Below, in pieces: positions 1 to 2,148 of a stretch of 10,000 nt of DNA (within the stretch, counting starts at the first letter, position 1; every line of letters begins with the position of its first letter). The translations under genes and the position numbers were made by a program. Source of the stretch: Desulfovibrio sp. (GTDB taxonomy: Bacteria; Desulfobacterota; Desulfovibrionia; Desulfovibrionales; Desulfovibrionaceae); assembly GCA_020217165.1 (NCBI GenBank), contig JAIWOE010000012.1:1-10000 (forward strand). The letters run 5' to 3'. The notes under the pieces were generated by a model. It was not told the DNA's origin. It searched no databases and saw only the letters and a list, made by a program, of their open reading frames with translations.

Positions 1-65
1 ACAATGGTGCGGCCGGTGTTCCGGTTGAAGATACGCTCCAGACGAACGCTTTTTCCTAGCAACAT
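1..65 (-). CDS. ADH synthase (archaeal-type shikimate entry enzyme, DhnA/FbaB-like aldolase), N-terminus only
   Basis: Only the first 21 codons are in the window; the gene continues past the left edge. The visible start is MLLGKSVRLERIFNRNTGRT. It matches the opening of the class I aldolase family that includes 2-amino-3,7-dideoxy-D-threo-hept-6-ulosonate synthase and DhnA-type fructose-bisphosphate aldolase, which typically begin M-(L/H)-(I/L)-GK-x-(I/V)-R-(L/M)-ERI-x-NRNTG(R/K)T. The start at 65 is chosen over the ATG at 69 because it alone gives this sequence and because a perfect AGGAGG (77-72, minus strand) lies 6 nt upstream. In Desulfovibrio this enzyme opens a large operon of common-pathway, phe, tyr and trp genes (from memory). 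The aromatic attenuator just upstream supports the aromatic role over a glycolytic aldolase. The family call is fairly secure; the exact substrate rests on context. Confidence 0.7.
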   Translation of the reverse strand, partial: MLLGKSVRLERIFNRNTGRTI

Positions 66-135
66 ACATCGCCTCCTGCTCTGTTGGGGGTCGCTGGTGC
101 AGACACCCGCTGCGTGTGCTGCGTTCGCCAGGGCC

Positions 136-172
136 AAAAAAACGGGCCGCCGGCTTCTCGCCCGCGGCCCGT
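136..172 (-). terminator. Intrinsic terminator acting as attenuator of the aromatic operon
   Basis: Reading the minus strand, ACGGGCCGC (172-164) and GCGGCCCGT (150-142) form a perfect 9-bp GC-rich stem with a 13-nt loop, followed at once by seven T (142-136). This is a textbook rho-independent terminator, but it lies upstream of the ADH synthase start (65) and after the aromatic leader peptide. It would therefore stop transcription before the structural gene unless an alternative fold forms. Confidence 0.85.
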
Positions 173-190
173 GTGGTGGTGGTGCGCTGG

Positions 191-246
191 TTTCTGGTTA
201 AGGCTGCACCCTCCCTGCCGGACCCCGGGCCCTGGTAAACCAGAAA
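191..246 (-). promoter_or_regulatory. Alternative pairing segments of the attenuator leader RNA
   Basis: On the leader RNA, TTTCTGGTT (246-238), which lies inside the aromatic codons, is perfectly complementary over 9 nt to AACCAGAAA (199-191), which overlaps the leader stop codon. This is the relation expected of segments 1 and 2 of a trp-type attenuator: a ribosome stalled on the aromatic codons would prevent this pairing. A candidate antiterminator is GGCCCG (231-226) pairing with CGGGCC (171-166) in the 5' arm of the terminator, only 6 bp. The complementarities are seen in the sequence; their use as a switch is inferred, and the antiterminator is the least certain part. Confidence 0.5.
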
Positions 247-284
247 TAAAACCAAAAGTACTGGGAGGTCTGGCTGGTGTGCAT
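198..284 (-). CDS. Aromatic leader peptide of an attenuator (28 aa, eight aromatic codons in a row)
   Basis: A 28-codon ORF runs from ATG (284-282) to TAA (200-198) in the leader of the ADH synthase gene. Residues 9-16 (positions 260-237) are YFWFYFWF: two Tyr, four Phe, two Trp, with no interruption. The known pheL and trpL leader peptides carry similar control codons; this one mixes all three amino acids, which fits an operon serving the common aromatic pathway. The stop codon lies 25 nt before an intrinsic terminator hairpin, and the structural gene starts 132 nt further on. No good Shine-Dalgarno sequence precedes the ATG. A TTGACA-N18-TATTCG promoter candidate would place the transcription start on the A of this ATG, so leaderless translation is possible. 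The ORF stays open upstream to 503, but that part has no ribosome binding site and no family resemblance. The call is an inference from sequence pattern and position; translation is unproven. Confidence 0.8.
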   Translation of the reverse strand: MHTSQTSQYFWFYFWFTRARGPAGRVQP

Positions 285-290
285 GTGGGA

Positions 291-320
291 CGAATACCCC
301 AGGGCGGGGTGGGATGTCAA
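291..320 (-). promoter_or_regulatory. Candidate sigma-70 promoter for the aromatic operon leader
   Basis: On the minus strand there is a perfect -35 TTGACA (320-315), an 18-nt spacer and a weak -10 TATTCG (296-291). The predicted start of transcription is at about 284, the first base of the leader-peptide ATG. The -10 is poor (three of six matches), so this is a candidate only. A second TTGACA (382-377, minus) has no acceptable -10. Confidence 0.35.
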
Positions 321-454
321 GCGGGCCTGGCGGGAAGGCGGGAAAAAATCCCGGGCAGGCAGGCCTTGGCTTGATTTGTCAATTGCACGGGGAAGCCCGC
401 GCCGCCTGTAAGACGTGTTTGACATTTTTGTGTATCTGAAGCAAGGGGACCAGC

Positions 455-470
455 ATGAACTGCTGTTCAT
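455..470. promoter_or_regulatory. Perfect palindrome, candidate activator or repressor site
   Basis: ATGAAC and GTTCAT flank a TGCT spacer, giving a perfect 6-bp inverted repeat. Its centre lies about 147 bp upstream of the transcription start predicted for the sigma-54 promoter, a normal distance for a sigma-54 enhancer-binding protein. It could equally serve the divergent aromatic transcript. It does not match the NtrC consensus, so the protein that binds is unknown. Confidence 0.35.
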
Positions 471-583
471 AATTGTGAGGTTTGCCGCAGAAGAATTGTC
501 CAAATTGTAAAAATCAACCTTTCACGGGGAGGGGGTGCGGGGCGCTTGTTTTCTATCTCCTGGAATAAATGATGTTTTTGTGT

Positions 584-599
584 TGGCGAAGTTCTTGCT
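584..599 (+). promoter_or_regulatory. Sigma-54 (RpoN) promoter of amtB-glnB
   Basis: The sequence TGGCGAAGTTCTTGCT has the invariant GG (585-586) and GC (597-598) exactly 10 nt apart, with TGGC at the -24 element and TTGCT at the -12 element. The -24 element deviates after TGGC (GAA for the usual ACG). Transcription would begin near 610, about 128 nt before the amtB start. Ammonium transporter and PII genes are classic RpoN targets, which supports the call. Confidence 0.75.
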
Positions 600-723
600 T
601 AGCAAGGCATGGAAACGGAGTGTTCCTTGGCACCGTTGCAAATGAATCGCCTGCTACCCCGAGCCCCGCGGCCAGTGCCCTGTTCCCCGGCCCGCTGCAG
701 CAGGAAACGATTCCATTCATTTC

Positions 724-731
724 AAAGGAGG
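724..731 (+). promoter_or_regulatory. Ribosome binding site that decides the amtB start
   Basis: AAAGGAGG ends 1 nt before the ATG at 733 but 7 nt before the ATG at 739. Only the second spacing is suitable for initiation, so amtB is called from 739. Confidence 0.8.
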
Positions 732-738
732 CATGAGT

Positions 739-2148
739 ATGAGTTCCTGGATTTCTTCCCGCACGCGCCGGCCTGCCGGGCTTCGCACTGCACTGCTGGG
801 GGCGGCGGGTGCTGCCGTCCTGGCCCTGGTGCCGGTCCTGGCCATGGCCGAGGAAGCCGCCGCCGAGGCTCCTGAAATGTTGACCCAAACCCACGCCAAC
901 ATCCTGTGGACCCTGCTGGCGGCCATTCTGGTGATGTTCATGCAGCCCGGCTTTGCCATGGTGGAGTGCGGGTTTACCCGGGCCAAGAACGCCGGCAACA
1001 TCCTGATGAAGAATTTTCTGGATTTCGCTGCCGGCAGCGTGGTCTTCTTTTTGGTGGGCTTTGGGCTCATGTTCGGGGCGGACCAGGCCGGGTTCCTGGG
1101 CACGTCGGGCTTTCTGCTTGACGGCGCCACGGGTACCGACGCCGACGGCCAGTGGACGCTGACCTTCTGGTTCTTCCAGTCCGTCTTTGCCGCCACCGCC
1201 GCCACCATCGTCTCCGGGGCCATTGCCGAGCGCACCAGATTCCTGGCCTATATCCTGATCAGCGTGGTGGTGACCGGCATCATCTATCCCATATCCGGCC
1301 ACTGGGCCTGGGGCAACCTCTGGCTGGGCGATAACGGCGGCGGCTGGCTGGTGGACATGGGCTTCATCGACTTTGCCGGCTCCACGGTGGTGCATTCCGT
1401 GGGCGGCTGGGTTGGCCTGGCGGGCGCCATGGTGCTGGGGCCGCGCATTGGCAAGTACACCAAGGACGGCCAGGCCCGCGCCATTCCCGGCCATAACATT
1501 CCCCTGGCGGCCCTGGGCGTATTCATCCTGTGGTTCGGCTGGTTCGGCTTCAACCCCGGCTCCACCACCGTGGCCGGCGGCGAAATCGGCTACATTGCCG
1601 TGAACACCAGCCTGGCCGCCTGCGCCGGTTTGCTGGCCGCCATGACCACCACCTGGATCCGCTTCGGCAAGCCGGACCCGTCCATGAGTATGAACGGCGC
1701 CTTGGCCGGCCTGGTGGGCATCACCGCCGGGTGCTTCGAAGTGGCGCCGGTGGGCGCGCTGATCATCGGCTTCCTCACCGGTATCCTGGTGGTGCTGAGC
1801 GTGGAATGCATCGACAAGGTGCTCAAGATCGATGATCCCGTGGGCGCTGTGTCCGTGCATGGCGTGTGCGGGGCCTTCGGCACCGTGGCCGTGGCCTTCC
1901 TGGCCCACCCTGGGTATGGTTCTGCCACCGGCCTCCTGTATGGCGGGGAAATCTCCCTGCTGGTGACGCAGCTTGTGGGTGTGGGGGCAGTGTTTGTCTG
2001 GGCCTTTGGCCTGGGCTTCGTGGCCTTCAAGTTGGTGGATTTGATCATGGGGGTGCGGGCCAGCGCTGAGGAAGAGCTCAAGGGTCTGGACATCACCGAA
2101 CACGGCAGCGAAGCGTACAGCGGCTTCCAGATCTTCACCGTGGAATAA
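739..2148 (+). CDS. amtB: Ammonium transporter AmtB
   Basis: A 469-residue member of the Amt/Rh family, a trimeric inner-membrane channel for ammonium. The N-terminus (about residues 15-38) is a cleavable signal peptide with an AMA-EE type end, as in E. coli AmtB, followed by eleven membrane segments. The family signature DFAGSTVVHSVGG (211-223) contains the first pore histidine (H219); the second lies in VSVHGVCG (H374). The pore-lining aromatic residues and the VECGFTRAKN region are also kept. The C-terminal tail has the conserved GVRASAEEE(L)KGLDITEHGSEAY segment, with the EHG-x-x-AY end typical of channels gated by PII proteins. The PII gene follows after 38 nt, giving the usual amtB-glnK/glnB pair. 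The sigma-54 promoter upstream points to induction under nitrogen limitation. Nothing is missing or truncated. Confidence 0.97.
   Translation: MSSWISSRTRRPAGLRTALLGAAGAAVLALVPVLAMAEEAAAEAPEMLTQTHANILWTLLAAILVMFMQPGFAMVECGFTRAKNAGNILMKNFLDFAAGSVVFFLVGFGLMFGADQAGFLGTSGFLLDGATGTDADGQWTLTFWFFQSVFAATAATIVSGAIAERTRFLAYILISVVVTGIIYPISGHWAWGNLWLGDNGGGWLVDMGFIDFAGSTVVHSVGGWVGLAGAMVLGPRIGKYTKDGQARAIPGHNIPLAALGVFILWFGWFGFNPGSTTVAGGEIGYIAVNTSLAACAGLLAAMTTTWIRFGKPDPSMSMNGALAGLVGITAGCFEVAPVGALIIGFLTGILVVLSVECIDKVLKIDDPVGAVSVHGVCGAFGTVAVAFLAHPGYGSATGLLYGGEISLLVTQLVGVGAVFVWAFGLGFVAFKLVDLIMGVRASAEEELKGLDITEHGSEAYSGFQIFTVE

Follow-up and report, generated by a model that had tools for sequence, protein, structure and literature searches.

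Ribosome-mediated transcription attenuation is best known from the classical leaders of E. coli, trpL and pheL. Multivalent attenuators stand before ilvGMEDA (Leu/Val/Ile) and thrABC (Thr/Ile), leaderless leader ORFs are represented by trpL of S. meliloti and by the mycobacterial polycysteine ORFs, and in C. glutamicum the aroR attenuator precedes aroF. Because the thrABC and ilvGMEDA leaders are known, multivalency is not in itself new, and the statement of the original prediction that classical leader peptides sense one amino acid does not hold for these multi-amino-acid leaders.

The element found near the start of the window, as we call the whole stretch of 10,000 nucleotides analysed, is very probably a ribosome-mediated transcription attenuator responding to several amino acids (Table 1). 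Like trpL and pheL, it combines a leader ORF with control codons, an antiterminator and a Rho-independent terminator with a U run in front of a biosynthetic operon; unlike them, its run is made of three aromatic amino acids, region 2 lies inside the ORF directly after the control codons, and its transcript is predicted to start without a leader sequence. It resembles the ilvGMEDA and thrABC attenuators in that a single leader bears codons for more than one of the operon's end products, but it belongs to the aromatic pathway, and its codon set varies in relatives with what the operon contains, a single amino acid dominating in the extreme forms. With S. meliloti trpL and the mycobacterial polycysteine ORFs it would share the position of the leader ORF at the 5′ end of the transcript, predicted here from promoter spacing only, while the amino acids and the lineage are different. 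As in C. glutamicum aroR, a leader peptide stands ahead of a first-step aromatic enzyme, although of another enzyme family and in another phylum.

To the extent that this could be checked, three features are new: a run of all three aromatic amino acids spread over an order, a conserved core on which the control codons are swapped, and a start predicted to be leaderless; an earlier description is possible. In the passages looked up, PMC545781 mentions attenuation twice, for riboswitches and in the references, with no mention of aromatic, tryptophan or leader peptide; those of PMC1262725 concern Actinobacteria; those of PMC5764234 do not mention attenuation; those of PMC2965389 treat leader peptides in general, with no mention of Desulfovibrio or aromatic; and those of PMC4215793 contain none of these terms.

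Table 1. Features of the putative attenuator and its surroundings, in window positions
Feature	Position	Strand	Basis or remark
-35 element TTGACA	315..320	-	sequence reading; kept in the congener G093
probable -10 element TATTCG	291..296	-	18-nt spacer after the -35 element
leader peptide ORF MHTSQTSQYFWFYFWFTRARGPAGRVQP*	198..284	-	translation; no Shine-Dalgarno-like motif seen before the ORF
control codons Y F W F Y F W F, region 1	237..260	-	translation, shuffles, relatives
antiterminator strand, region 2, GCCCGGGGTCC, codons A-R-G-P	220..230	-	forms 10 pairs and a single G·G mismatch with 170-160
terminator 5′ arm, region 3	160..172	-	common to terminator and antiterminator
terminator 3′ arm, region 4 (154-142), and T7 run (142-136)	136..154	-	sequence and fold
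start of first structural gene, ADH synthase (TIGR01949)	1..65	-	65 bases in window; rest in adjoining 10-kb piece G000:C71

Translation and shuffling both bear out the leader ORF and the YFWFYFWF run on which the original prediction was built. The ORF has 28 codons, and eight consecutive ones among them are aromatic (TAC TTT TGG TTT TAT TTC TGG TTT), whereas 6 aromatic residues in 10 codons were the maximum for any short ORF when the 450 nt ahead of the first gene were dinucleotide-shuffled 2000 times. The terminator hairpin (arms 172-160/154-142, loop 159-155) is followed by seven T, as had been claimed; its stem, described as perfect, has 12 pairs interrupted by a G·G mismatch (163·151). 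When the leader RNA (284-136) is folded, as had been proposed, the terminator appears at -62.1 kcal/mol with a z of -2.9. Leader and Rho-independent terminator do precede, in this order, the structural gene starting at position 65, and in the short leader ORF the codons for the amino acids under regulation are clustered. A search with the 4227 models of Rfam release 15 over window 1-700, with E up to 1, gave nothing relevant and no match at gathering score, the single match being DnaX on the opposite strand and below its gathering score; at 13 related loci zero matches reached gathering score.

In regard to the genes behind the leader, the order is ADH synthase, a second ADH synthase, DHQ synthase II, PheA (prephenate dehydratase), AroA, TyrA-like, TrpE, TrpG, TrpD and TrpC, with the TyrA-, TrpE- and TrpC-like proteins scoring below the curated cut-offs of their families. 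Since the reading frame is carried on in G000:C71 from window base 1, the operon seems to be split only by the cutting of the assembly into pieces of 10,000 bases. It combines genes of the common pathway with those of the Phe, Tyr and Trp branches, and an operon with all three branches is the expected target of a leader with codons for all three aromatic amino acids. The divergent neighbour (733-2516) resembles, by eye, an ammonium transporter followed by a PII protein.

The leader was then compared across Desulfovibrionales. TIGR01949 matches occur in 194 of 199 genomes of the order, above the cut-off in 189. From about 150 listed matches, 124 were chosen, omitting extra members of well-sampled genera; 120 of these ADHS regions were taken, and 80 named loci were added from one collection scan; gene starts less than 150 nt from the end of a region were left out of the leader survey. 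Among the matches listed, aromatic-rich leaders precede the majority of those ADH synthases that are first in an operon or occur singly. At least seven aromatic residues in 10 codons were found in 128 of 151 upstream regions against 2 of 1510 shuffles, and a terminator is present in 146 of 151 distinct leader candidates, the window's included. Convincing leaders are absent at L071, L079, L083, L093, L099, L107, L109 (whose contig starts just 206 nt before the gene) and L227. Three doubtful loci (L081, L090, L113) were excluded from the leaderless, co-transcriptional and ddG sets, with L081 and L113 kept in the codon counts. The congener G093 has an identical ADH synthase across the 267 columns compared; between run and terminator its sequence is almost the same as the window's, with more differences in the flanks. 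Neither run nor hairpin has thus been lost in this close relative, and both are present in most relatives examined.

The original prediction also pointed to a complementarity between the control codons and the region around the leader stop codon. The 9 nt are there in the window, but as a conserved element this helix was rejected: it has 7 nt in G093, and over 146 leaders it averages 7.46 against 7.06 with shuffled linkers. The comparison instead supports a regulatory pairing of codons 230-220 with the terminator 5′ arm (170-160), an antiterminator element on the minus strand that the original prediction did not contain. Many leader peptides have in common an A-[C/R/S]-G motif directly after the aromatic run, and the RNA of these codons is complementary to the terminator 5′ arm. 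Over 75 aligned sequences, 92.4% of the cells of the terminator helix are paired (covariation 0.157 vs 0.090 shuffled), as are 92.7% of those of the antiterminator helix (0.252 vs 0.196), falling to 37-43% when the latter is slid. Column 135, in the 5′ arm, is particularly telling: its base co-varies with the antiterminator partner and is paired with it in 74 of the 75 sequences (UA 40, CG 18, UG 14, AU 2), while as part of the terminator it is paired in 21 of 75, leaving a mismatch in most terminators. In the peptide-anchored set, which comprises 132 of the 151 candidates, 127 pair, compared with a mean of 101 and a maximum of 114 in 10,000 permutations that retain relatedness. Furthermore, the complementarity between the coding stretch and the 5′ arm exceeds that of all ten of its own shuffles in 83% of 146 leaders. 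Antiterminator pairs changed on both sides number three, which is not above shuffles (95 of 500 reach three), and RNAalifold alone returned the terminator and a 3-pair hairpin only, with no antiterminator.

Two other origins of these structures have to be weighed at this point. Conservation of A-[C/R/S]-G after the run would also be expected if the nascent peptide itself, rather than the codons, acted as the sensor or arrested the ribosome. The exchange of Cys, Arg and Ser tracks the base in the terminator, though, and the N-terminal residues as well as the composition of the run vary; the conservation of the motif is accounted for by its pairing with the terminator arm, and we rejected the arrest peptide as the main reading, considering it very improbable. 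Alternatively, the ORF and the hairpin could have come together by coincidence, or the hairpin could be the ordinary terminator of upstream transcription. GC-rich DNA does yield terminator-like matches by chance, 1.1 being expected from shuffles of window 1-760 in a simple terminator scan that did not list the hairpin 172-142, probably because of its G·G mismatch. Since the elements occur in fixed order and spacing, with covariation, and stand out against shuffles, such a coincidence is scarcely conceivable. Judged by comparison, the locus harbours a genuine attenuator, of a kind already known.

Placement of the promoter at the leader AUG is another feature that had been missed. In the window, transcription is predicted to start at the leader ATG (284) or within a few nt of it. 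The strict consensus promoter scan of window 1-760 gave no promoter, because the -10 element fits just three of six consensus bases. Among 146 leaders, TTGAC[ATG] starts 36-37 nt upstream of the leader ATG in 83, and the best -10 element ends 6-9 nt upstream of it in 97, with a mean best promoter score of 9.2 vs 7.6 in shuffles. When in-frame alternative ATGs are allowed, TTGAC stands at leaderless spacing in 124 of 143 leaders; an SD-like motif is absent in 117 of these 124 and present in 11 of the 19 others. For the 23 leaders outside the order, the corresponding numbers are 4 with TTGAC at leaderless spacing and 6 with an SD-like motif. Promoter spacing and the absence of SD-like motifs together suggest that the leader transcripts are probably leaderless, which would make them candidates for attenuation acting on leaderless RNA.

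The control codons appear to follow the downstream genes while the core of regions 2, 3 and 4 stays conserved, a view that the leader comparison supports. For the classing of codons against genes, 20 of the 146 leaders were set aside as their contigs end too early. Operons with trp genes are preceded by 76 leaders, which have Phe in 76, Tyr in 76 and Trp in 75, the exception being L187 from a 43%-complete genome in which the genes match in several pieces. In the 50 leaders of operons without trp genes, Trp occurs in 10. The 29 leaders of lone ADH synthases, defined by none of eight reference aromatic genes being co-directional with gaps below 700 nt (other genes may follow), have Trp in 0, Phe in 28 and at least one Tyr in 14, and three are Tyr-rich. 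Where both kinds of leader occur in one genome, the contrast in Trp is kept in 11 of 11 genomes, ten of them from one genus. Phylogenetically independent contrasts in codon content are few: the tree permits just three independent, well-supported comparisons of trp genes with Trp codons, and none shows the opposite, a number with which significance is impossible.

The same counts bear on whether such a leader chiefly senses Phe, with Tyr and Trp codons being minor or owing their presence to the exchangeability of aromatic codons. Phe has the highest mean among the control residues in every operon class (3.9 per leader for full operons, 6.0 for lone ADH synthases), the last Trp and Phe codons of the window's run are predicted to be poor stall sites, and some leaders retain Trp where the operon has no trp genes; in genus g3, one Trp codon is kept in 7 of 7 leaders of this kind. 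A chiefly Phe-sensing attenuator would not account, however, for Trp codons in nearly all full-operon leaders and in none of the lone ADH synthase leaders, for the persistence of this contrast within genomes, or for leaders that are rich in Tyr or carry WW or WWW, and we regard it as unlikely. The separate trpE of ten g3 genomes and of G124 has its own leader with WW or WWW at 11 of 11 loci.

A codon series of this kind would be a natural set of attenuators with one RNA core and differing control codons tied to known gene contents, so that the sensed amino acid could be predicted from sequence and tested. It seems rather likely that one attenuator core has had its control codons repeatedly exchanged, with Phe, Tyr and Trp before all-in-one operons, a predominance of either Phe or Tyr where an ADH synthase isozyme stands alone, and the promoter at the leader AUG in most of the Desulfovibrionales leaders examined. 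Echoes of it would be the WW/WWW leaders of trp operons that have split off and, in other parts of the phylum, the aromatic leaders of DAHP synthases; the synthesis of aromatic amino acids would then be under the control of leader codons.

Several further observations concern individual leaders. The ORFs upstream of trpE (L291-L301) carry WW or WWW, as in GWWWR, together with scattered Phe codons. In Solidesulfovibrio and similar genomes, the leaders of second ADH synthase copies are rich in Tyr, with runs of 3-5 Tyr (L105, L111, L114, L272-L274); we know of no attenuator with a Tyr-rich control set. In G120, G150 and G105, where no trpD was found, the leaders have no Trp in the run.

A strict rule, by which a Trp codon would occur exactly when trp genes are present in the genome, was weakened by 21 further genomes, in which 24 listed loci were examined and the runs read by eye. 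Where trpD follows in the same orientation at 7-8 kb, the run contains Trp in 6 of 6 (G009, G014, G139, G090, G002, G013). With trpD on another contig or strand or more than 30 kb off, Trp is present in 7 of 11 and absent in G187, G170, G091 and G162. The second copies L309 and L326 have no Trp in the run; G038 has Trp, its trpD placement not being assignable to a class, and so has G033, a genome 89% complete in which no trpD was found. The hit in G181 lies below the family cut-off, and among these genomes no leader was recognised for G193 or for the copy L327.

In the mechanism that we propose, RNA polymerase would start at the A of the leader AUG or in its immediate vicinity, and a ribosome would initiate on the leaderless 5′ end. 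If charged tRNA-Phe, -Tyr or -Trp were scarce, the ribosome would stall within the run, leaving region 2 free to pair with region 3 once the latter is transcribed; this 2:3 pairing would block the terminator and let transcription continue into the operon for the three aromatic amino acids. With all three plentiful, the ribosome would reach the stop codon (200) and region 2 or its flanks would be masked, allowing the terminator to form and transcription to end near position 136. The comparison of relatives shows the two alternative helices, and their timing and the response to amino acids are presumed; by computation, the antiterminator is mutually exclusive with the terminator and would be freed by stalling. 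The original idea of a mixed aromatic attenuator before an all-aromatics operon is in this way supported by the comparison, and the leader would presumably sense all three amino acids. It would most likely work as a fuel gauge, switching on the genes for all three when any one runs short, and it suggests how sulfate reducers may tune the entry into the archaeal-type aromatic pathway.

Folding calculations, in which the ribosome footprint sizes are assumptions (with a 16-nt mask at the stop codon), reproduce parts of this scheme. Before region 4 is transcribed, a 2:3 helix of at least 6 bp is predicted in 132 of 140 leaders for a stall in mid-run and in 126 of 140 for a stall at the last codon. 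With stalling, the antiterminator gains on the terminator in 131 of 140 leaders (median 7.2 kcal/mol), and a ribosome at the stop codon shifts ddG in the direction of the terminator. At equilibrium the antiterminator is favoured in 0 of 140 leaders with the ribosome at the stop codon, in 8 of 140 without a ribosome and in 3 of 140 averaged over stalls. Equilibrium folding alone was thus rejected as an account of the switch, which it does not reproduce; as the terminator is favoured in nearly every state, the model requires the 2:3 helix to form first.

For the window itself the predicted shift is small, from -5.3 kcal/mol at the stop codon to between -1.8 and -2.9 kcal/mol for the first six control codons, while stalls at the last two (-7.7 and -14.4) are predicted to favour termination, with region 2 hidden. 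In the co-transcriptional model with the 16-nt mask, the 2:3 helix still forms in 77 of 140 leaders when the ribosome is at the stop codon; region 2 of the window ends 19 nt before the stop, against a median of 13. A sequestering 1:2 helix was found in 34 of 140 only and is not general.

In the phylum at large, of which 395 genomes were sampled, a covariance model of the element, which has one full-length match in its own genome, finds matches in 131, an upper bound because some matches cover the terminator alone. A few matches before unrelated genes (L264, L270, L279, L284) or without an aromatic leader (L258, L264, L276) may be due to chance. Among 34 loci inspected, several precede DAHP synthases of two types (by eye, two being checked by family), three precede ADHS-DHQS-PheA-AroA operons, and L288 precedes trpE with a WW leader. 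At several of the loci L260-L269 and L277-L290, aromatic leader ORFs and terminators are found together before DAHP synthases of both types.
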